Shown in pieces: positions 36,944 to 60,576 of a stretch of 64,000 nt of DNA. Each line of letters starts with the position of its first letter. Within the stretch, counting starts at the first letter, position 1. Source of the DNA: Cytidiella melzeri (Eukaryota; Basidiomycota; Agaricomycetes; Polyporales; Irpicaceae); the NCBI GenBank assembly GCA_022592445.1, contig JABYQR010000037.1:145691-209690 (forward strand), in the 5' to 3' direction. The translations under genes were made by a program, and so were the position numbers. The notes under the pieces were generated by a model. It ran no database searches. It saw only the letters and a list, made by a program, of their open reading frames with translations, and was not told the DNA's origin.

Positions 36944-39900
36944 TCAAGCATGAACATGAAGCAGTTCATTGAAGTGCTTGAGTTTTTCGAGAGGTAGTGC
37001 TTTAGTAAGAGTATCAGCACGTTGATCGGCAGAAGGTACGTGGTGCACAGTAATGTACCCTTTAGTTACACGATTGCTGATGAAGTTCTTGCAAATGTTG
37101 AAGTGTTTAGTACGTTGAGAGTGTTGTTCCTCGGGGGAACAAACAATCACAAGAGTTGACGCGCTGTCAGTGTACATCTTGACAGGGTCCATAGTGCAGT
37201 TAAGTAATTCATCTATGAGGCTCTTCGAATAGATGGCCTCTGTGGACGCATGAGCAAGTGTGCACAGTTTGGCTTCGGTGACCAATAAAGTTACAAGTGA
37301 ACTGCACTTACTTGATTAAGAGATAAGCAAGTTGTTGTATGTGAAGGTGTAGCCCATTATTGGTTTATTGCCGTACGTAGTCATACCATCAGAGTTGCCA
37401 TAACCTACGAGTGAAGTAGAAGTAGGGTTGGCTTGGTTTCCTAGGACAAGCCAGTAGTTGCATGTTTCCTTGAGGTAAAGGTAACACTGTTTAGCTGCAG
37501 CGTAGTGTTCCTTAGCAGGGTCGGATGAGTATTGTGCTAGTTGACCAGTGCAATAAGCAATGTCTGGCCGAGTACTGTCGGCGACGTAGCGTAAGCCACC
37601 AACAATAGACATGTAGTGTGTAATGGCGTCAGCGTCCTGATGTGGTTCGGTCACAGCACAGGGGGCTAAGTTGTGCTCGTGTACCATTGGTGTGCAGCGT
37701 GAATGCTTGTGGTCAAAGTTGTATCGCTTAAGTATGTTCAAGATATAATTCCTTTGGCAAAGCTTGATAATGCCTGCGGCTTTATCATAAGTGTCATGGA
37801 TGGCCTGACTAGCCCTTAATTTTTGCAATTTACCTCTTGTTTTTATCTGTAAAACTCCGGGCTGCAGCTCAGTTGCAACCTTTCATGCATAAACTCCTTT
37901 TGCACGTCTATTAAGCGCCCGTATCACGTGGCTTAGACGCTCCACACGGTCACATTACTTGCTACTACGTCACACTAGCATGTGACTTAGCTTAAGTAAG
38001 ACCACATGGCTACAAGCACATGGCTCAGCCCATAGCTAGGGTTTGACGTCATAGATACTGCCCACATGGGCTCCTTATTGTTCTCTTTATGGAAGGATGT
38101 TCTCACAGGTGTGGGAATGGAATACAATAGTTGGTCTCCTTTTAGATAGATTCTCTCACGGATAGAGTTCTTGGCAAGGTCTAGACAATAGCTATTGTTC
38201 TCCTTTAGGTAGTCCTTTTGTTCTTCGTTCACATGGCTTCTTGCAAAGCCTGCCCTCAACATGGTCTGTGCGCAGGTCCCTGAAGTCTATATAAGCAGCT
38301 ACATGTACGCTCCTAGCCCCCATCTCGACCTCTTGGTCTTTACTGGGCTAGGTAAGCAAATCCCTCCTGTACTACATAGCTAGTAGTACCCAATACTAAC
38401 TTGGTCTTTACTGGGCTAGATACCTGCATAAGGTTTATAGTTGGTGAGAGCATTGTGCTATACGTCTGCCACCACCTCGTCGTCGTCTTCCACTCCGTGT
38501 CCCTAGTTGCTACGTTGAGCTCTGTCTCCGTGACAATAAGCAACTTCCATGCCAAGCATCCAGTGGATAGTTCCACTGTTAGTAAGTTCAACATGTTGTC
38601 TGAGTGCGATCTCAAAATGTTCGGCAACAGTAGTAGTGATAGTGCCAAGAGTAATGTCATTGACGTGGACAGCAAGTAGAAGTATGAGTGTATCACCTCG
38701 ATAGAGGTAGAAGACTGCATTGTCGAATTCACAACGCTTCAGTCCAAGTGCAAAGAGTATGTCACATAATACTTTGTACCAACGACGTCCGGCTTGCTTA
38801 AGGCCGTAGATAGTTTTCCGAAGTTTAAGTACCCAGCCAGGTGGCAGGTTCAGAAGTAAGTCACCAGGAGGTGGACGAAGATAAAGGTCTTCATCCTCAT
38901 GGATGTTACCATATAAGTATGCGGACTTGATATCGAGCTGAGTGATCTCAAAGTGTAGTGAAGCCGCGAGAGTAAGCACAAATCATAATGAACTCATATG
39001 TGCAACAGGTGTGAATAAGTTGTTCAAGTAGTAATCAATGCCGTCACGCTGGGAGTATCCTTGCGCAACAAGTCTTGACTTGAGTTTAGTGACTTTGCTA
39101 TGTTCGTATTTTGTTTTGTAGACAAAGCGCAAACCAGTGATGTTTGCATTTGGCGGCGGGATACAGTATTCCCAAGTGCCAAGTTGTTTGAGGGTATAAA
39201 CCTCGGTTTTCATTGACTTGAGCCAGTCGATCTTGAGTGGGTGGTTAAGTACGTCTTTGTAAGTAACTGGATCACCGACATCTTCAGCGTAGTATGCATT
39301 GAATTCAGTCAAGTAGAAGGCAATGTTTGTATCGACTTCATCATAGTTTAAGCCTCGAGCTTTGCACAAAGGCTTAGGCTCTCTAGTAGAACACCTAAAA
39401 CCAGAAGGGTCAGGCTCGTCGATGTCCATGGGTTCGACATGAGGATTCTCCTCGAGTTCAAGTTGTTTTTCAAGAGTAGGTTTTTCAATATTTGGTTCTT
39501 TCTCCCCTTCAATTTGTGCCGTAGAGTCAACAAATTGCAAGTTTCGTTCAACGCCTACGCGTGTTCTGAAGTAAACGTAGTGGCCTTTGGAATATTTAGC
39601 AAAGCCTATCCAAACGCCGCGCTTGCCTTTTGGCGCGAGTTTATTGGTTCGGTATTTGTCGTATACAATACACGGTTGACCAAACTTTTGAAGCACATCA
39701 AGGTTTGCTTCAGTACCATAGCATTTGAAGTAAGGAGTTTTGTATTGAAGAGGAGCACGAGGAGTGCAATTATAGAGATAGACTGCATGAAGCACAGCGT
39801 ACCACCATAACCAGTTCGGTAAAGCAGCCGTATGCAGGTTTACACAAAGCAAGTTCATAATAGTCTGGTGTGTGCGTTCAGCAACACCATTTTGTGCAGG

Positions 39901-42556
39901 AGTATTGTGCACAGTAAGCCGGGGTATAGTACCTTGTGACTTCAAGTAGGTTGTCATATTTGCACCAGTGAATACGCCATCGTTGTCAGCTCGAAGGATC
40001 TTGACGCAAATATTGTATTGCGTAAGAAGCTCAGTAGAGAAGATAACCCATTGAGTGAAGGCATCATCTTTTGTTTTGAATGGCGCAAGTGTTAACCATC
40101 GAGTTGAGTTGTTGTCAATAGTCAACCAGTACAGATAATGACCAGTAATCGACACAGTGGGTAGTGGCCCAAAGATGTCAATATGAAAGTGATCACCAAA
40201 GGAAGTAGCCAACGGCGAAGTACGAGCTTTGGGGACTGGAGTACGATGAATATTATTCAAGATACAGTCCTCGCACGGAGTTTATGTGCGGTCAGTGATA
40301 TGAGTAGTGATGATAAGCTTGGACGTTTCGAGTAGTTTGTTTATCTGGAAATAACTGATGTGACCGAGTTTTCTATGAAGTTCAAGCATCGTTATACCAG
40401 ACTTATGCACGCTTGCTAAAGAAGTCACGCGAGTAGAGTGAAGTGAATACAAATTGTGTATTTCTCGTATCACAGCTACACAAGACGCGTTTGAGTCATA
40501 TATGGTACAAGTATTTGAAAAGAAAGTAAAGCGATAGTCAGCATCCAATTTTGAAACACTGATAAGCGTAAAGGGTAGTTGTGAGTTGTAGTAGACATTC
40601 TTTAGCATGAGTTGATTATGCATACCATTTTCTTGTTCTACCTTGAGTACCATGTCGCCGGCGAGTTTGAGACTTATTTGTTCTGAGTTGGCAACAGTGA
40701 GTAAGATAGCCGGTACAGAGTGAACATTGAAAAGTAAGTCACCATATGGCGTACAGTGTATAGTAGCACCAGTATCGATGACATGAACACACTTGTCAGA
40801 CGACGAAGTCGCGAACAGTGGGAGTAAAGTAGAAGAAATGGTACGAGGAATGACGTGCATTGTGACGTCCAAGTTGGAAAGAGACTTAACACACGCGCTC
40901 TGACCAGTGAAGCCACTGCCTGTGGTGTAGTTGAAGACGGGCACGGAGTGAGGGTGCTCGAGGACCTCATTGTCCGAGTCAGCAGTGGCAGTGACGTTGG
41001 CCATGAGGCCAGTAGCAGTTGAAGAGCCGGCAGCGGTGGACTCTTTCTTCTTGCCTTGAGCAGCAGCGGCAGCGGATTTGCAAGTGATGCCCTTCTGTTT
41101 CATCGCAGCTTTGGACTTTTCAGTCCAGGGCAGAGGGCAAGTTGGCATCATGTGGCCAGGCTGCAGTTGCCCTGACCAGAAGTGGAGGGCTTGCTCGACA
41201 AGTAGGGAGCTGCGGCCGCGCGAGCAGTAGTGGTGGTTTTGGTCAAGCGTTTGACCACGGCCTTGCCCTTGGCGTGCAAAGCCGAAGGAGCGTGAGCTTT
41301 GTCCTTTGGGACAAAAGTGGTAGGCCCCTTAGACTCGGAAGTCTCCGGGGGTGCGTGAGTTGCCAGTTGGTGAACTCGCGACGAAGCTCAGCAATGAGCG
41401 CGTTGGGCCTGTAGCAGAACTTCTCTCCAGCCAGAGTGGAAGAACGTACGCCGACCTTGTAGTTCTGGCGTGTGGCGACGTAGGCAGGAGGGATAATCCC
41501 GATGATGGCAGCATAGAAGATGTGATCGGGGATGTCGACGCCAGCAGCAATAAGCTTGCTGCGGATGTTGGTGGCATCGTCGAGCAGCTTGTCTATCTCA
41601 TAGATAGGACAACGAAGGTGGAAGAGCTGGTATATCTCATTCGCGTCAGACACGGTTGTCTTTGGATTGTAACGTTCACGCAGCTTATCCATGAGTACGT
41701 GGGGCTTGTACTCATTGAGATAGTTTGCCATGACCGAGTCAGAGATATGACCAGTCAGGACATTGAAGACAGCCCGCGTAACCTCTTGAGGAACGGTCAG
41801 GCCACCTCGGAGTGTGTGGAACTCCAGTATAGTTGACATAGCGGTCTCAACGCGGAATTTCCACATCGGCCAGGTGTCAGCCCCAGTAAGTCTGCCAACA
41901 TCAGAGAAGGCTTTGTTAATGTTGCTGAGCAACATAGCGAAGTTGTTGTCATGGCCAGGTGGCACGGACAGAAGTTGCGACACTTTGCGTGTTGACCTAG
42001 TGCCTATGGAGCTAGGCGGCGGCAGCGGTGGCGAGCCACCAGGAGGGCTACCAGGAGGAGGGGGAGTTGTCAAACGGCGAGCAGGACGTTTCTCGCGTCG
42101 TCGTCTAGGCCTCTCATCCTCATCCATACGGTTATCATCACTGTCATTGTCTCTTCCATGAGGGTGACAACGGCAATCGTCATTGCGAAGAGTATCGAAG
42201 GGGATGCGACGGCAATCAGCTGGAGGAGTGGAGACATGACGAGCACCTGGGATTGTTTCACGATTCTCAGAGCTAGATGAGTGGTTGTCGTTGTTACTGG
42301 GTTGGGGGTCGATGTCTGGGACATTAGAGGTGGATGGTCAAGCTGAGGGAGCATCAGTCTTTGTGATAGGGGTGGAAGACATTGAGGGAGGAGGTGTAGT
42401 AGGAGCAGGAGAAGGAGTAGGGGTGAAGGTGGGAGTTGTCCTGCGAGTGGTGGTTCTTTGGCGGGGTTGAGCTCTGGTGCCCCTGAGAAAGTTGGTTTGG
42501 TGTCGCTCTCTAGTGGAACGACAAAGTTGAGCTTGATCAGCGAGATCAGAGCTCAT
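36944..42556 (-). pseudogene. Copia gag-pol remnant
   Basis: In element order: N-terminal gag from about 42556 (MSSDLADQ, interrupted by TGA near 42338); a UBN2-type gag core (41.4-42.1 kb, TWPMWKFRVETAMSTIL); protease (VIDTGATIHCTP, about 40.78 kb); GAG-pre-integrase (LHRKLGHISYFQINKLL); integrase core (about 39.4-40.2 kb, HIDIFGPLP, ADNDGVF, NGVAERTHQ); reverse transcriptase (38.5-39.2 kb, KSRLVAQGY, QLDIKSAYLYG, IYGLKQAGRRWY); RNase H (36.94-37.29 kb, ending ADTLTKALPLEKL). In-frame stops at 40282 and 38983 look like CAA-to-TAA and CGA-to-TGA changes. The catalytic box reads HVNDI in place of a VDD, so the polymerase is dead as well as truncated. The C-terminal part of reverse transcriptase (37316-37786) resumes in frame beyond the nested LTR. 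Confidence 0.85.
37792..38535 (+). mobile_element. Solo gypsy LTR nested in the copia reverse transcriptase
   Basis: 744 bp beginning TGTCATGGATGGCC and ending TCTCCGTGACA, the same family as the LTRs at 45387 and 52260. It is flanked by a perfect 5-bp target duplication ATAAG (37787-37791 and 38536-38540). No internal sequence is present, so it is the product of LTR-LTR recombination. It keeps the TATA box, the 68-bp intron-like segment (38352-38419) and the ACAATAGCTATTGT palindrome. Confidence 0.93.
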
Positions 42557-42782: not shown

Positions 42783-42861
42783 GACAACATGTCACAGATT
42801 CTCAATGTTTCTACAAGACTTGCTTTACCAGGCAACGGTATTATTGGGAATATTTCAGTGC

Positions 42862-44647: not shown

Positions 44648-45386
44648 TGACACGGAGACAGGGCTCGACATGACAAACAGGGACAAGAAGTGGAAAACAA
44701 CAAGGAGGCGGTGGCAGGAATAGAGCACAATGCTTTCACCAGCTATCAGACTTTGTTCAAGTTGCTAGCCTAGTAAAGACCAAGTTAGTATCTGTACTAC
44801 CAGCTATATAATACAGGAGGGGGTGGCTTACCTAGCCCAGTAAAGACCAAGAGGTCGAGATGGGAGGCTAAGAGCATACATGCAGCATCTTATATAGACT
44901 TCATGGACCTGCACACAGACCATGTTAAGGGCAGGCTTTGCAAGAAGCCATGTGAGTGAAGAACAGTAGAACTACCTAAAGGAGAACAATAGCTATTGTC
45001 TGGACTCTGCCAAGACCTCTACTTGTGAGAGAATCTATCTAAAAGGAGACCAGTTATTGTATTCCATTCCCACACCTGTGAGAACATTCTTCCATAAAGA
45101 GAACAATAGGGAAAGAACAATAGGAGTCCATGTGAATGGTATCTATGATGTCAAACCCTAGCTATGGGCTGAGCCATGTGGTTGTAGCCATGTGGTCTTA
45201 CAGAAGCTGAGTCACATGCCAGTGTGACGTATCAGCTAGTAGCATGACCGTGTAGAGCATCTAAGCCACATGATACAGGCGTTTAATAGACATGCAAAGG
45301 GTTTGGCAGAGAGGGTTGCAAGCTAGTTTCAATGCTAAAGACTAGAGGTAATATGTGAAAAAATAAGGGCTAGTCGGGCCATCCAG
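44648..45386 (-). mobile_element. Old inverted gypsy solo LTR, split by the full-length element
   Basis: The reverse complement of the gypsy LTR, diverged throughout. It starts TGACACGGAGACAGGGCT and runs to ...GGGCCATCCAG. Its last four bases (GACA) lie beyond the full-length element at 53021-53024. The flanks TAGCC (44643-44647) and TAGCT (53025-53029) are a 4/5-matching target duplication. It still has the intron-like segment (44831-44765 on the minus strand) with GTAAGC and TACTAAC. Confidence 0.85.
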
Positions 45387-45896
45387 TGTCATGGATGGCC
45401 TGACTAGCCCTTAATTTTCGCAATTTACCTCTTGTTTTTATCTGTAAAACTCCGGGCTACAACCTAGTTTCAATTCTCTCTGCATAAACTCCCTTTGCAC
45501 GTCTATTAAGCGCCCGTATCACGTGGCTTAGACGCTCCACACGGTCACATTACTTGCTACTACGTCACACTGGCATGTGACTTAGCTTAAGTAAGACCAC
45601 ATGGCTACAACCACATGGCTCAGCCCATAGCTAGGGTTTGACGTCATAGATACCGTCCACATGGGCTCCTTATTGTTCTTTCCCTATTGTTCTCTTTATG
45701 GAAGGATGTTCTCACAGGTGTGGGAATGGAATACAATAGTTGGTCTCCTTTTAGAAAGATTCTCTCACGAGTAGAGTTCTTGGCAAGGTCTAGACAATAG
45801 CTATTGTTCTCCTTTAGGTAGTTCTTTTGTTCTTCGTTCACACGGCTTCTTGCAAAGCCTGCCCTTAACATGGTCTGTGCGCAGGTCCCTGAAGTC

Positions 45897-45940
45897 TATA
45901 TAAGCAGCTACATGTACGCTCCTAGCCCTCATCTCGACCT
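45897..45940 (+). promoter_or_regulatory. LTR core promoter and predicted transcript 5' end
   Basis: TATATAAG at 45897-45904. The sequence ATCTCGACCT begins 34 bp after the start of the TATA box, at the expected initiation distance, and is exactly complementary to the 10 bases just after the LTR. The start site itself is inferred. Confidence 0.6.
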
Positions 45941-45960
45941 CTTGGTCTTTACTGGGCTAG

Positions 45961-46028
45961 GTAAGCAACACCCCTCTTGTACTACATAGCGAGTAGTATC
46001 AATACTAACTTGGTCTTTACTGGGCTAG
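45961..46028 (+). other. Intron-like segment inside the LTR
   Basis: 68 bp with GTAAGC donor, a perfect TACTAAC branch site (46003-46009) 19 nt before the 3' end, and GGGCTAG acceptor. The 20 bp before the donor (CTTGGTCTTTACTGGGCTAG) are repeated at the 3' end of the segment. The same segment is at 52832-52899, 38352-38419 and, inverted, at 44765-44831. It is exactly missing from the LTR at 59888. Confidence 0.6.
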
Positions 46029-46146
46029 ATATCTGTATAAGGTTTATAGCTGGTGAGAGCATTGTGCTATACGCCTGCCACCACCTCGTCGTCGTCTTCC
46101 ACTCCGTGTCCCTAGTTGCTGCGTCGAGCTCCGTCTCCGTGACATT

Positions 46147-46156
46147 AGGTCGAGAT
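46147..46156 (+). other. Predicted self-priming primer-binding site
   Basis: AGGTCGAGAT, two bases (TT) after the LTR end. It is the reverse complement of ATCTCGACCT at the predicted RNA 5' end (45931-45940). It does not begin with TGG, so it does not look like a tRNA 3'-end binding site. The two-base gap is what integrase end-processing would leave. Confidence 0.65.
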
Positions 46157-46217
46157 CGTTGTGAAACCCTGGGTTCCCCCATTCCCACCGTTTAAAAAAG
46201 TTTATTCCTGTTTGACG

Positions 46218-47018
46218 AGTACGTCTCCGGTCTTTCCATACCGTTGAGCTACTACTTACGTCGTCCGTTTCTACCCCCTGCGTTGTTCAGTGCCTAAGGA
46301 CACGCGCACCCGTTTTTCCAAGGACCTCTCTACGAACGAGCCTCAGCTCAAGAGGTGCCTCCCCCCATCTTTCCTCGACGCTCTCGCTGCCAAGCGTACG
46401 AGCGGTCAACCTCATCGCTGGTCTGACAAAGACCTCGTCAACGTCGCGAAGTACGTATCAAAGAAGCCGCCCGTCAAAGGCATCACCCTCACCGTCCCCT
46501 CATACGAGGAAAACCAGCAACTTCGCGCTTCTGCCCGAGCATACGGAGAACGCATTGCTGAAGAACGTGCTCGCACTCTAGCAGAGCAACACACCCACAA
46601 GCCGACTCTCACTGAGCGGCTTGCTAAACTTCCTGCACCCACTCCTGCTCCTGCCGCACCTAAGCCGGTGCTTCTTGACTTCAAGAAGCTAGCACCCTGC
46701 GACCTTGCAGGCATCTTTAGGCCAAAACTTACAGCTGTCCGCACTCGGCTACAAGCTCTTACTGAGCTCGAAGAACTCCTTAACCGCGCAGACCCCGACC
46801 ACCGTCGCGCCCTGCTCCACCTCGTCAACAAAGTCAACCGCTTCCTCAACCGACTTGACGACCTCGCACCAGTCACCGCCGACCGTGAGTGGCAACTCTT
46901 AGACTGGGGGTGCAAAGCAATAGGGAAAATTTCTTTTAAGCAGCTCCGTAAAAGCTACAACAAAGTTCTTGCGCAGCTTAACGTAGTTAATAACGATAGC
47001 TACTTCGAGTGGATCTAG
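46218..47018 (+). CDS. First ORF of the gypsy element (ORF0), unknown function
   Basis: Spliced ORF: base 46218 joined to 46291-47018, about 242 residues. Basic N-terminus (MPKDTRTRFSKDL), a conserved block QPHRWSDKDLVNVAKYVSK, an Ala/Arg-rich helix (YGERIAEERARTLAEQ), a Pro/Ala linker (PAPTPAPAAPKP), and a Leu-rich helical C-terminal domain ending NVVNNDSYFEWI. It has no zinc knuckle and no capsid signature I recognise. It lies 42 nt upstream of the gag ATG. It is intact here and broken in copy 2. It may be an accessory or nucleic-acid-binding protein; that is a guess from charge. Confidence 0.6.
46219..46290 (+). other. Predicted intron that creates the start codon of the first ORF
   Basis: 72 bp with GTACGT donor and TTGTTCAG acceptor. 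The upstream exon ends GACGA and the downstream exon starts TGCCTAAG, so splicing yields A|TG in the context GACGATGCC, with A at -3. Unspliced, the frame has only GTG here. The second copy conserves donor and acceptor (60651-60723, 73 bp). Confidence 0.55.
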
Positions 47019-47060
47019 ACAGTCCACAGTCTTGTAACAAATTGCATACATTTCTTCGAC

Positions 47061-48179
47061 ATGGATCCCAACCAGCCCGCCGCCCCTGCTGCCCCTGCTG
47101 CCCCAGCTGCCCCAGTCACCAACCTGAGCCAGCAAGACGTCCTGAATATATTGGGCGTCTTGACACAAAGGATGGTAGACCTGACCAATCAGGTGGCTGC
47201 ACTTGCAGCTGCACAGACACCAGCGGTTGCCGCTGCTACCCACGCTTCTCGGGAAAGAAGCATCGTTGAGAAACCAGTCTCCTTCAAGGGGAAAACATCG
47301 TCGGAAGCTCGGCTCTTCCGTCACGCGTTCATAGTATGGGCGCAAAATCAAGGAAAAGCGTTTTTCCAACAAGACGCGCAAGGCCAGGTCCGAGTGGATA
47401 ACAATGGCGCGAGGATCTTCGATCCTCACAAACTCATCACCAGCGCCTTGTCGTTTATGCAGGACGACGCTGCCGACTGGGCTCGCCCTCACATCGAGGA
47501 GTTGGCCAATAGCAAACCAGCATTTGGAAATGACTGGGACACGTTTATTGAGGCCTTCAAGGCAAAGTTTGAGCCTATTGACGCGGTCATGGAGGCCAAG
47601 ACTAAGGTTACCGGCATGAAGCAGGGTAACAAGACATTCGCCGCCCACATCTCGGAGTTCGAGACCTGGGCCCCTCGCACTGGCTGGAGCCAGCAGGACC
47701 TTTTCGACCGTCTCAAGTCAAGCTTGAGTACGGAATACCTTCAGCGCGTCTCCTACTTCCAGACCCGCGCCACAACTTACGATGCACTGAAGGACCAGTG
47801 CAAGGCAGTAGACGCTCAACTAGCGGATCTACGCAACAGCACAGGGAAGGTCATGGTGGACAGTTCCTCGGGACATGGCAAGTCCCACCAGCAAGCGTTC
47901 CGTGATCCCAATGCGATGGAGATCGACGCCTCTCGTTTCTCCGCCTCGTTTGATGCGCTCTTTGCGGGGCTAGGCAAACAGGAGATCTTCCAGAAATGGA
48001 AGAAGGAGATGAGCAAGCGCTGCTCGGTTTGTGGTTCTGAGAGCCACAAGAAAAGGGACTCTAAGCACCCAGAGGACCCGGTTTGCAACCACTGCGGAGG
48101 TACTGGTCACTGGGGATCTGTTTGCCTGAAAAGGCTTCAAGGCGTTCCTAAAGGACAGAAAGTTGCGGCCACCTCGTGA
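47061..48179 (+). CDS. Gypsy gag, copy 1 (C-terminally truncated)
   Basis: 372 codons. Ala/Pro-rich start (MDPNQPAAPAAPAAP), a coiled coil (LTQRMVDLTNQVAALAAA), the retrotransposon gag core (SFKGKTSSEARLFRHAF, WDTFIEAFKAKFEPIDA, FETWAPRTGWSQQDLFDRLKSSL), then two Cys/His segments: CSVCGSESHKKRDSKHP (degenerate) and CNHCGGTGHWGSVC (a CX2CX4HX4C knuckle). Compared with copy 2, a single-base deletion near 48174 creates a TGA after VAATS and removes the last 48 or so residues. Confidence 0.88.
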   Translation: MDPNQPAAPAAPAAPAAPVTNLSQQDVLNILGVLTQRMVDLTNQVAALAAAQTPAVAAATHASRERSIVEKPVSFKGKTSSEARLFRHAFIVWAQNQGKAFFQQDAQGQVRVDNNGARIFDPHKLITSALSFMQDDAADWARPHIEELANSKPAFGNDWDTFIEAFKAKFEPIDAVMEAKTKVTGMKQGNKTFAAHISEFETWAPRTGWSQQDLFDRLKSSLSTEYLQRVSYFQTRATTYDALKDQCKAVDAQLADLRNSTGKVMVDSSSGHGKSHQQAFRDPNAMEIDASRFSASFDALFAGLGKQEIFQKWKKEMSKRCSVCGSESHKKRDSKHPEDPVCNHCGGTGHWGSVCLKRLQGVPKGQKVAATS

Positions 48180-51100
48180 CCTCGTCGACTACCGCCACAA
48201 CAAAGCAAGACGCGTCCGACGACAAGGATGCTAAAATTGCTGCCCTCAAGGACATGTTGGAGCTTCAGAAGAAGCAAATGGACGAAATGGCGGCCAAAAT
48301 CAACGCGGTTTTTTGAAAAGGACTCGTGACACAGCCGCAGCTGCGAGTCCCTCTGATACCCCGTCCTCACTCCTCTCGTCTTCTGCCTCGTCATCTTCGT
48401 GTACAAAGTCTATCTCCTGCCCGTCGTCTACTATCTCCTCATGTACTATATCGTCGCTAGATCGGTTATCATCTCATTTCCGTGTACATGTACTAGTTAA
48501 AGGTCTGAATAGAAGCATTCGCGTTCCTGCATGATCGATTCGGAGCTACGGCTTTATTCATCAGTCACCAGTTCGTCAAGAAGCATAAGATTATTCAGCA
48601 CCCGCTCGAAAGGGTTATCTCATTGCATAACATTGACGGAACTAAGAATAAAGCTGGCGGATTAACGCACTTCGTTCGTCTTACACTCACAGTCGGAGAT
48701 CACACGGAAAAGGCAGAGTTTCTCGTCACGGACTTAGGTCCAGAAGACGTCATTCTTGGGCTACCATGGCTCAAGCGCGTAAACCCTACCGTCAACTGGG
48801 AAAAAGGAGAAATGACAATTCCGAGCGGCTCGGAAGAATCTCCTACTGAACCTTTCCAGAAGGTTGCGGTAATCGCAAAGAACGTAGGCAGTGGGTCAAA
48901 GCCGGTATTATCCAAGACACCACTGACGAAGTCTGGTGTATGGCCGGCTTCACCTACTCTACTAAGCTTGCTGCCGAAGCAAACGAAGCTAAAGCTCATC
49001 GCTCCTTCGAAGACATTGTTCCTCAGAGTATCACCGACATGCTAAAGTCTTCTCTGAGGAAGAGTCTAATCGGCTACCCCAGCATCAGCCCTGGGACCAT
49101 TCGATTGATCTCAAACCAGACGCTCCTGAGACCATCAAATCGAAAGTTTACCCTATGCCCCTGAATGAACAAGCCGAACTTGACAAGTTCATTCAGGAGA
49201 ACCTAGCAAAAGGTTACATCACGCCTTCTAAGTCTCCGATGGCTTCTCCAGTCTTTTCATCAAAAAGAAGGACAACAAACTCCGACTTATTCAGGACTAT
49301 CGTAAACTCAACGACATCACCGTGAAGAACCGCTACCCTCTACCGCTTGCCACCGACATCATCAACAAGCTCAAGGGTGCAAAGATCTTCACCAAATTCG
49401 ATGTTCGTTGGGGATATCACAATGTCCGCATCAAAGAAGGAGACGAGTACAAAGCGGCTTTCGTTACCAACCGAGGACTCTTCGAACCTAAAGTCATGTT
49501 CTTCGGTCTCACGAACTCACCCGCTACCTTCCAAGCTCTGATGGACAACATCTTCGCCGACCTCGTGGCCGAGGGCAAGGTGGCTGTCTATCTAGATGAC
49601 ATCTTGATCTGGAGTAACAACCTGACAGAGCACCGCAAGGTTGTTCATGAAGTCCTCGAGCGACTTCAGCAGCACGATCTGTATCTTCGTCCGGAAAAGT
49701 GCGAGTTTGAGAAATCTGAGATCGAGTACCTTGGATTGATCATTCGCGCCGGCGAAGTAGCTATGGACCCTGTCAAAGTCCAAGCAGTTTCTACGTGGCC
49801 CACACCCAAGAACCTCAAAGAAGTCAGAGGATTCATGGGTTCGCTAACTTCTACCGCCGCTTCATTCAAGACTTCTCAAAGCACGCACGGCCTCTACACG
49901 ACCTGACTAAGAAGGACGTACCGTTCGTCTGGGGTCCAGCACAAGAGACTGCCTTCACGTGCTAAAGAAGGCCTTTACCACTAAGCCTATCTTGGCAGTC
50001 TGGGACCCTGAACTCCCTACACGTCTAGAAGTCGATGCCTCGGGCTATGCGACCGGTGGAATCATCTCCCAGAAATCGAAGGAAGATGGATTCTACCACC
50101 CTATCGCCTACCGGTCCGCCTCTATGACTGAAGCAGAGCGTAACTACGAAATCTTTGATCGGGAGATGTTAGCCATCACCGAGGCTCTCAAAGATTGGCG
50201 CCACTACCTTGAGGGGCTCAAGGAACCGTTTGAGATCTGGACAGATCACGCAAACCTGCAGTACTGGAAGACTGCGCAACACCTCACTCGACGTCAAGCA
50301 CGTTGGTCATTACTTTTGGCTGACTTCGACTTCGTGTTGGTACACAAGCCCGGTAGTACCATGATACACGCTGATCCTCTCTCTCGTCTTCACTCTCACG
50401 CTGTCACGGACGAAGAAGACAACAAGGATCAGGTGGTACTGAAACCGGAACACTTCCGGATCCTCGCACCAGTGCGCTTGCCACTGCTTCTCCACTCGAA
50501 TCAAAGATCCGAGAATGCACGGAGCAAGAAGCAGAAGTCGCACAAGCTCTCGCTACCCTTCGAAAAAGGGTCCTCGCAAACTTGTCGGCGGTTTACTCGA
50601 ATGGGAAGAGAGTGACGGCTCATCTATTACAAGGGAAAACTCTACATCCCTAACAACAAAGAGCTCCGTCACGAAATCGTCAAATCTTGCCATGACACAC
50701 CCGCGGCTGGTCATCCGGGCAAACACGGCACCATAGAGCTAGTCTCACGACACTATTGGTGGCCAAAGATGAATGCCTTCATCGAGACTTACGTACTAGG
50801 TTGTGATCGCTGCCAACGCTACAAGTCAGCTCCACACCCTAAAGCAGTACTACAGCCTCAGGAAACTCCGGCCGGACCTTGGGAACACGTCGGAGTAGAT
50901 CTCATCACTCAGCTGCCACCCTCTAAGGGATTTGATTCGATGCGGTCTACGTCGACCATTACTCCGATCAAACGCACATCATCCCTACTACCACTAAGGT
51001 TAACGCTGAGGGGATTGCCGATCTACACTACAAGAAGTATTCCGACTTCACGGCATTCCCAAGAAGGTGTTCTCTGACCGAGGACCCCAGTTTGCAGCGC

Positions 51101-52094
51101 GCTTCATGCGTGCGCTCTATCACCGCCTGGCATAGAGACTGGTTTTACGACCGCCTATCATCCGCAAGGAAATGGCAAAGTCGAACGCAAAAACCAGGAT
51201 ATCGAACAGTATCTGCGTCTATTCTGTCAGCAACGACAAGACGACTGGGTCGATCATCTACCGGCGGCTGAGTTTGCACTCAACTCGCGAGTACACGCGG
51301 GTAACTCCCAAACACCGTTTGAAGTCATCTATGGATATCGCCCCGACTTCACCATACCAGTCGGCAAGCGAAGCAATATCCCATCACTCGATGAGCGCCT
51401 TGACAATATGGCTCGAGTACGCAAAGAGACCGAAGCAGCTCTTCGTCTAAGCAAAGAAAAGATGAAGCAACTCTACGAGTCTGAGAAGCGCTCTCCACGC
51501 GTCTTCCAAGTAGGGGACATGGTCTGGCTAACGCTAAGAACGTCCAGATCACCAGGCTACCCCTAAACTCGGTCCTCGACAACTCGGCCCGTACAAGGTC
51601 ATCGAACGCATTGGCGATCTCGATTACAAACTCGATCTACCCAGCTATCTCCGAATCCACCCCGTCTTCCACATCAACCGTCTAAGTCCCTGGCACGACA
51701 ACGGCAAAGACGTACCTCCACCTCCTGATCCTATCGTCATAGAAGGAGAAGAACAGTACGTCGTCGAAAAGTGCTAGACAGCAGGCTACACGGACGTTGG
51801 AAGAAATTGCAATTCCTTGTCAAATGGGAAGGGTATTCAGACGGACACAATAGCTGGGAACCAGTAGAAAACCTCGAGAATAGTCAAGAAGCAATTGACG
51901 ACTTCTACAAAGCAAACCCCGGAGCGCCCCGGGTCATCAAAGCTTCACTCTTCGCGGATCTCCGCTCGCACTTTCGGGAATTCAATACCCAGACCGACCC
52001 CGCTTTCCTTCGCACGATCTATCCATCTACATACGATCTTAGCTGGGATGAAGGCAAACACATCGGTCTGGATATCTCAAGAACATCACACTGA
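48180..52094 (+). pseudogene. Gypsy pol, copy 1 (frameshifted)
   Basis: Domains in order, in shifting frames: protease (about 48.53-48.83 kb, DS-x-A-T-A-L-F site, LGLPWLKRVNPTVNW); reverse transcriptase (49.16-49.85 kb, [14 protein letters not shown] with catalytic Asp at 49400, YLDD at 49589-49600); RNase H (49.99-50.40 kb, LEVDASGYATGG); integrase HHCC zinc finger and core (50.65-51.45 kb, GHPGKHG, CDRCQRYKSA, GVDLI); chromodomain (51.78-51.90 kb, LQFLVKWEGYSDGHNSWEP). Catalytic residues are mostly kept, but at least five single-base deletions interrupt the frame, for example near 49256, 49843, 49962 and 51131. Confidence 0.85.
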
Positions 52095-52244
52095 CGGGTA
52101 ACGTCGAGTCAACGACACCAGAAGGGGAGAAACTTCCTAGCATCCTTCTGACTAGACAATCGGGGCAATTCTGCTGAATCCCTGTAGACGGGTAGAAGAC
52201 CTCTATCACCACAGCACAGTGATGCTTCGCGAGGACGCTCGATT

Positions 52245-52259
52245 TTAGGAGGGGGGTAA
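52245..52259 (+). other. Polypurine tract of gypsy copy 1
   Basis: TTAGGAGGGGGGTAA directly before the 3' LTR: a purine-rich plus-strand primer site. Confidence 0.75.
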
Positions 52260-53015
52260 TGTCATGGATGGCCTGACTAGCCCTTAATTTTCGCAATTTA
52301 CCTCTTGTTTTTATCTGTAAAACTCCGGGCTACAACCTAGTTTCAATTCTCTCTGCATAAACTCCTTTGCACGTCTATTAAGCGCCCGTATCACGTGGCT
52401 TAGACGCTCCACACGGTCACATTACTTGCTACTACGTCACACTGGCATGTGACTTAGCTTAAGTAAGACCACATGGCTACAACACATGGCTCAGCCCATA
52501 GCTAGGGTTTGACGTCATAGATACCGTCCACATGGGCTCCTTATTGTTCTTTCCCTATTGTTCTCTTTATGGAAGGATGTTCTCACAGGTGTGGGAATGG
52601 AATACAATAGTTGGTCTCCTTTTAGAAAGATTCTCTCACGAGTAGAGTTCTTGGCAAGGTCTAGACAATAGCTATTGTTCTCCTTTAGGTAGTTCTTTTG
52701 TTCTTCGTTCACACGGCTTCTTGCAAAGCCTGCCCTTAACATGGTCTGTGCGCAGGTCCCTGAAGTCTATATAAGCAGCTACATGTACGCTCCTAGCCCT
52801 CATCTCGACCTCTTGGTCTTTACTGGGCTAGGTAAGCAACACCCCTCTTGTACTACATAGCGAGTAGTATCAATACTAACTTGGTCTTTACTGGGCTAGA
52901 TATCTGTATAAGGTTTATAGCTGGTGAGAGCATTGTGCTATACGCCTGCCACCACCTCGTCGTCGTCTTCCACTCCGTGTCCCTAGTTGCTGCGTCGAGC
53001 TCCGTCTCCGTGACA
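52260..53015 (+). repeat. Gypsy copy 1 3' LTR
   Basis: 756 bp, nearly identical to the 5' LTR. Includes the intron-like segment at 52832-52899 and the palindrome at 52675-52688. Confidence 0.93.
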
Positions 53016-59887: not shown

Positions 59888-60576
59888 TGTCATGGATGGC
59901 CTGACTAGCCCTTAATTATCGCAATTTACCTCTTGTTTTTATCTACAAAACTCCGGGCTGCAGCTCAGTTGCAACCTTTTCTACACAAACTCCTTTGCAC
60001 GTCTATAAAGCGCCCGTATCACGTGGCTTAGACGCTCCACACGGTCACATTACTTGCTACTACGTCACACTAGCATGTGACTTAGCTTAAGTAAGACCAC
60101 ATGGCTACAGACACATGGTTCAGCCCATAGCTAGGGTTTGATGTCATAAATGACGTCCACATGGACTCCTTTTGTTCTTTCCTTAATGTTCTCTTTATGG
60201 AAGGATGTTCTCACAGGTGTGGGAATGGAATACAATAGTTGGTCTCCTTTTAGATAGATTCTCTCACGGGTAGAGTTCTTGGCAAGGTCTAGACAATAGC
60301 TATTGTTCTCCTTTAGGTAGTTCTTTTGTTCTTCGTTCACACGGCTTCTTGCAAAGCCTGCCCTCAACATGGTCTGTGCGCAGGTCTTTGAAGTCTATAT
60401 ATACTGCTGCATGTACGCTCCTAGCCCCCCATCTTGACCTCTTGGTCTTTACTGGGCTAGCTTTCTGAATAAGTTTGATAGCTGGTGAACGCATTGTGCT
60501 TCACGCCTGCCACCACCTCCTCGTTGTCATCCGCATCGTGTCCCTTTTTGTCACGTCTAGCCCTGTCTCCGTGTCA
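59888..60576 (+). repeat. Gypsy copy 2 5' LTR, lacking the intron-like segment
   Basis: 689 bp, TGTCATGG...CCGTGTCA. Shorter than the copy 1 LTRs by 67-69 bp. The missing piece is the intron-like segment: here GGGCTAG (ending 60460) continues directly into CTTTCTGAATAAG. In copy 1, GGGCTAG is followed by the segment and then by ATATCTGTATAAG. Confidence 0.92.

Follow-up and report, generated by a model that had tools for sequence, protein, structure and literature searches.

If a complete spliceosomal intron lay within the R region of an LTR retrotransposon, it should vanish whenever spliced RNA serves as the template for reverse transcription; how, then, could such a unit be present in some long terminal repeats (LTRs) of a genome and missing, to the base, from others? 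The question is raised by the window, the whole stretch of 64,000 nucleotides from Cytidiella melzeri analysed here, which is part of contig C301 in a survey of the 49.7-Mb genome. The initial annotation described a segment of 67-68 bp with the signals GTAAGC, TACTAAC and CTAG in four LTRs, and one LTR (copy 2) from which exactly this segment was missing. Three of the four LTRs lie on the forward strand and one on the reverse strand, at confirmed coordinates (Table 1), and in the LTR of copy 2 the repeat runs directly into U5, the 68-bp unit being absent. The size of 756-758 bp given for intron-bearing LTRs holds for the pair of element 1, but not for the shorter solo LTR, nor for the reverse-strand LTR, which has diverged. 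Copy 2 is known from one LTR, since its 3' LTR falls past the end of C301 (209,690 bases), which is also the end of the window. We consider that the unit is probably a spliceosomal intron in R, lost through reverse transcription of spliced RNA, a reading drawn from the DNA sequence.

The Element and Its Surroundings

Element 1, spanning 45387-53015, combines an LTR pair with TG..CA ends, a target-site duplication, gag, and RT and RNase H domains, as found in LTR retrotransposons; we provisionally file it as Ty3/gypsy-like, solely from its Retrotrans_gag and RT_RNaseH matches. Between its 5' LTR and gag lies a frame of 242 aa (46290-47018, forward strand, listed from GTG), which matched no Pfam family at E 0.001 and could be an additional protein or the beginning of gag. 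The interval separating the solo LTR from the reverse-strand LTR contains fragments of a copia-type element (38983-42127, reverse strand), with RVT_2 and SH3_retrovirus matches and a copia gag match under the Pfam cut-off. A forward-strand frame at 56038-57129 matches the end of DDE_1 (transposase-like), and argininosuccinate synthase is a host enzyme in the window, its best named matches among 120 relatives listed coming from mushroom-forming fungi such as Fibroporia (90%) and Grifola (86%).

Table 1. Positions in the window of element 1, the related LTRs and the parts of the intron-like unit.
Feature	Position	Strand	Details
Solo LTR with intron	37792..38535	+	744 bp; ATAAG duplication
Presumed intron of solo LTR	38352..38419	+	68 bp
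Old reverse-strand LTR with intron	44648..45385	-	84.5% identity; 13-bp gap
Presumed intron of reverse-strand LTR	44765..44831	-	67 bp
5' LTR of Ty3/gypsy-like element 1	45387..46144	+	758 bp; TGTCA...TGACA ends; TCCAG target-site duplication with 3' LTR
TATA box TATATAAG	45897..45904	+	putative promoter role
rep1, 20-bp repeat closing presumed exon 1	45941..45960	+	
Presumed spliceosomal intron, R region of 5' LTR	45961..46028	+	68 bp; GTAAGC...TACTAAC...CTAG
5' splice site GTAAGC	45961..45966	+	
Small inverted repeat inside intron	45980..45998	+	TACTAC...GTAGTA
Branch-point-like TACTAAC	46003..46009	+	
rep2, second copy of 20-bp repeat	46009..46028	+	forms intron 3' end
gag of element 1	47061..48179	+	Retrotrans_gag PF03732 match
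3' LTR of element 1, intron present	52260..53015	+	756 bp
Presumed intron of element 1 3' LTR	52832..52899	+	68 bp
Copy 2 LTR, precise loss	59888..60576	+	689 bp
Single repeat at joined junction of copy 2	60442..60460	+	

Anatomy of the Intron-Like Unit

A direct repeat of 20 bp, C followed by TTGGTCTTTACTGGGCTAG, stands identically on both sides of the unit in element 1, and in the window copy the sole AG after CTAAC is the end of rep2 and with it the 3' end of the presumed intron. The GT-AG register falls at the extreme 3' end of the repeat, with 20 shared bases preceding the cut and none following it. When 400,000 units of 68 bp were simulated with an equal 20-bp ambiguity, 22 accommodated GTAAG, CTAAC and AG by chance, and 1,746 the looser GTRNG, YTNAY and AG. 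The GT...AG ends, together with a 5' splice site and a branch point of consensus type, are those of a U2-type intron, and the length lies in the range of host introns, as represented by a single host gene of the window, in which eight introns measuring 50-86 bp were located by spliced alignment. The unit measures 66-69 nt in 98 of 100 copies listed from the 845 in the genome, with a full range of 61-69 nt, and small internal deletions are seen in two of the 100 listed intron bodies (lengths 61 and 62). Folding the RNA of the intron and its repeats gave no excess stability (z 0.37, -0.46 and -0.61). Visual inspection of a candidate peptide frame starting in exon 1 led to its rejection, as copies differ in the lengths of both the C tract and the intron.

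Conservation of the Splice Signals

Conservation was read from 100 listed of the 845 genome copies, picked solely for having two exact 17-bp repeats separated by 30-60 nt. All 100 have GT, 96 have GTAAG and 95 have CTAAC; the base preceding CTAAC and about ten other intron columns vary by 15-60%. A C tract and the small inverted repeat are also conserved in these copies, the core arms ACTAC/GTAGT of the latter being present in 88 and the full arms in 65.

The initial annotation had asked whether the splice signals are more conserved than the rest of the segment, and this proved to be the case when departures from the commonest letter were counted in 59 intron-bearing LTRs: none in 354 positions for GTAAGC and one in 295 for CTAAC, against 146 in 2,155 for the intron middle. 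The corresponding counts were 718/29,289 for U3 and 330/5,601 for U5. Over a 19-bp core, rep1 departs at 3 and rep2 at 2 of 1,121 positions each, the rep2 figure being biased by the choice of the LTRs, about half by similarity to the unit and 30 by the exact 3' junction. Those 30 LTRs give the same picture (rep1 2/570, GTAAGC 0/180, CTAAC 0/150). Splicing alone does not account for the conservation of rep1, which belongs to the presumed exon and varies as little as rep2.

Genome-Wide Presence and Precise Loss

Across the genome we found 1,087 5' junctions with the intron (at most three mismatches) and 114 joined, intronless junctions, the latter an approximate count at the same tolerance that includes at least one intron-bearing copy (on C289, with GTAAGTG). 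A further count was anchored on an exact TATATAAG and ATAGYTGGTGA, and is thus blind to the repeats and splice sites. It placed 415 copies in the full length class (the first 100 listed) and yielded 50 precise losses and two more with longer upstream tracts, making 52 losses among 468 anchored copies; both longer-tract losses are also among the 114 joined junctions. One anchored copy, as assessed from its length and the part displayed, is intron-bearing with a shortening located upstream, and the intron is retained in 416/468, about 89%. Therefore either unspliced RNA would be the usual template, or the intron is restored, or it is seldom spliced. Partial loss of 10-58 bp was seen in none of the 468 anchored copies, with matches displayed to 80 letters. 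Copy 2 stands outside the anchored count because its TATA box differs; there, as in L074, it reads TATATATACTG and not TATATAAG. No tandem-expansion junction occurs in the genome at up to two mismatches, nor was there an expansion length class among anchored copies, the single match bearing no resemblance to this LTR.

Timing and History of the Losses

The unit is absent from both LTRs in nine intronless element pairs. Six belong to full-length elements with matching target-site duplications (C257, C453, C76, C499, C1 and C108), and three further pairs are intronless at both ends (C65, C161 and C731; duplications not read). Within-pair LTR identity is 99.6-100%, except for C108 (659/689 aligned, 12 mismatches). 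On contigs C1-C78, at the listed places (158 with the unit, 21 without), 29 same-strand neighbours 5.5-8 kb apart comprised 24 both with the unit, most of them unverified as true pairs, three both without and two mixed. No mixed LTR pair was confirmed among the neighbours sampled, since both mixed ones involve L074 and fail as pairs. Because both LTRs are intronless and no mixed pair was confirmed, the loss appears to precede integration, and it appears to proceed one way.

Individual candidates were followed up. On C48, an intronless LTR at 42815 and an intron-bearing one at 49645 (6.8 kb) differ strongly in U5 and have mismatched outer duplications, and were therefore rejected as a mixed pair; on C35, the intronless member of a mixed candidate (9.5 kb) is a solo LTR flanked on both sides by GTATC. 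A search for the partner of L087 on C411 found no LTR at 1050-1950. In L019/L020, a 60-bp U3 deletion is common to both LTRs of one element, with eight overlapping bases in the alignment; repeat-linked deletion before integration therefore does occur here.

On a tree of 96 LTRs (59 carrying the unit and 37 lacking it), calculated from sequence outside the unit and its repeats, the state must have changed at least 16 times, eight of these changes being forced by well-supported branches, and none of 500 shuffles came as low as 16 (mean 29.7). The state is therefore both recurrent and inherited. The closest other sampled insertion is intron-bearing for 19 and intronless for 18 of the 37 intronless rows, a number in which both LTRs of a single insertion are counted; L065, whose nearest insertion L051 carries the intron (99.4%), is an example. 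Separate intronless insertions form clusters on the tree, which suggests that intronless elements transpose. Independent losses with imprecise ends, which had been named as evidence against splicing, did not appear: losses are recurrent, and all of those seen are precise. Among the sampled LTRs, copy 2 is nearest overall to the intron-bearing L036 (95.4%), its U5 to the intronless L099 (95.7%), and this disagreement points to recombination. Recombination among packaged RNAs can spread the intronless state across lineages and make losses seem more numerous than they were, which lowers our confidence in the exact number.

Origin of the Intronless Copies

If the unit is indeed an intron lost through spliced RNA, transcription would start shortly (about 30 nt) past the TATA box, exon 1 would measure about 30-35 nt, and poly(A) would be added past 46029, placing the entire intron within R, in the 5' leader. 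The host spliceosome would excise GTAAGC...CTAAC...AG from part of the transcripts. The usual template would be unspliced RNA, leaving the intron in the great majority of copies. Where a spliced RNA served as template, strong-stop DNA would contain the two exons in direct junction, and the loss would pass to both LTRs by strand transfer. Many intronless insertions may have been founded in this way and some seem to have been amplified as intronless lineages, copy 2 presumably being one such.

The identical repeats would give the same product, with the deletion in both LTRs, if reverse transcriptase jumped from one to the other in minus-strand synthesis, in which case the unit may still be an intron or a conserved element. 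We regard this as rather unlikely. The deletion shared by L019/L020 is a precedent for a repeat-linked event before integration, and high frequencies of recombination-deletion are described for Ty1 reverse transcription (PMC2923131). The reciprocal expansion was not found, and jumping does not need conserved splice signals at the one register that serves splicing; neither argument settles the matter, since jumping could be biased towards deletion. Sequence alone cannot separate splicing from jumping, because rep1 and rep2 show no lineage-level difference in the LTRs read. The initial annotation's proposal of loss through a spliced genome is favoured by the signals, the length, the precision and recurrence of the loss, its presence in both LTRs of nine elements, the clusters of intronless insertions and the failure to find expansions, but jumping gives the same product; we infer that splicing, and not template jumping, accounts for the losses.

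Recombination between the repeats, raised at the outset as the competing explanation, stays viable as jumping by reverse transcriptase but finds little favour in its genomic form. If single LTRs underwent recombination or replication slippage at their 20-bp direct repeats after insertion, the product would be the same; mixed pairs and expansions would be expected of this route, and as no mixed LTR pair was confirmed in the neighbours sampled and 0 expansion junctions occur at up to two mismatches, we consider it very improbable. Equally improbable is that the unit is a promoter-downstream DNA or RNA element, such as tandem protein-binding repeats, matching splice signals by chance. The equal conservation of rep1 and rep2, as well as that of the small inverted repeat, would agree with such an element, but the chance fit is rare, conserved islands are few and include the 5' splice site and the branch point, and intronless copies exist as recent-looking full-length insertions.

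We also think it quite improbable, as a separate proposal, that the intron restores itself, with both its retention and its near-identical repeats explained by copying back from an unspliced 3' R. Since rep1 and rep2 are identical over 20 nt, strong-stop DNA copied from spliced RNA and halted inside the repeat could anneal to rep2 in the 3' R of an unspliced RNA and so regain the intron; each cycle would copy rep1 into rep2, and intronless copies would be cases of failed repair. If this were true, the element would use spliced RNA yet keep its intron. The same T-to-C change is found in both repeats of three copies with two intron haplotypes, a weak hint of copying between rep1 and rep2; three copies are not enough, and it was set aside as evidence.

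Relation to Known Systems

Identical repeats at the end of an exon and the end of an intron resemble those of an intron born by tandem genomic duplication. In the LTRs described here, however, no unduplicated ancestor was identified, and both states occur in many lineages. The foamy virus acceptor is distant from the donor in the LTR. The major splice donor of foamy virus lies in the LTR upstream of the poly(A) signal, and U1 acting on this donor suppresses early polyadenylation (PMC3694450). The unit likewise has a 5' splice site in the LTR, probably upstream of the poly(A) signals, whereas for foamy virus the donor alone is reported in the LTR (PMC3694450) and here donor, branch point and acceptor fall within 68 bp. 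Because all three lie within the LTR, the unit is found at both ends of the element. By analogy, U1 suppression of early polyadenylation may be why the element retains a splice donor in R.

A natural proviral copy without a spliced-out segment is also known as the Delta-HFV foamy provirus, in which a 301-bp deletion is spliced out of pregenomic RNA (PMC1224871). That deletion concerns the tas gene in chronically infected cells, whereas here the LTR changes and intronless copies cluster as separate insertions. In intron-marked LTR retrotransposons such as mini-Tnt1, the marker is lost through reverse transcription of spliced RNA (PMC2923131); that intron was engineered into a marker gene, whereas the present unit is natural, sits in the LTR and occurs genome-wide. 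BARE1 likewise is an LTR retrotransposon with a spliceosomal intron, of 104 nt, giving a spliced subgenomic Gag RNA which, its authors argue, takes no part in replication (PMC3735527). Among the matches listed from open-licence papers, taken by titles and abstract openings, we found no report of a complete natural intron inside an LTR; the phrase "intron in the LTR" in PMC5542766 concerns a lentiviral vector called LTR1 that contains an intron, and has no bearing here.

The roughly 1,100 intron-bearing and 110 intronless junctions would thus offer a natural experiment on the frequency with which spliced RNA is reverse transcribed, and on how unspliced genomic RNA is set aside. Comparison of intron-bearing with intronless LTRs may further allow a test of whether the loss of a leader intron helps or harms a retroelement.
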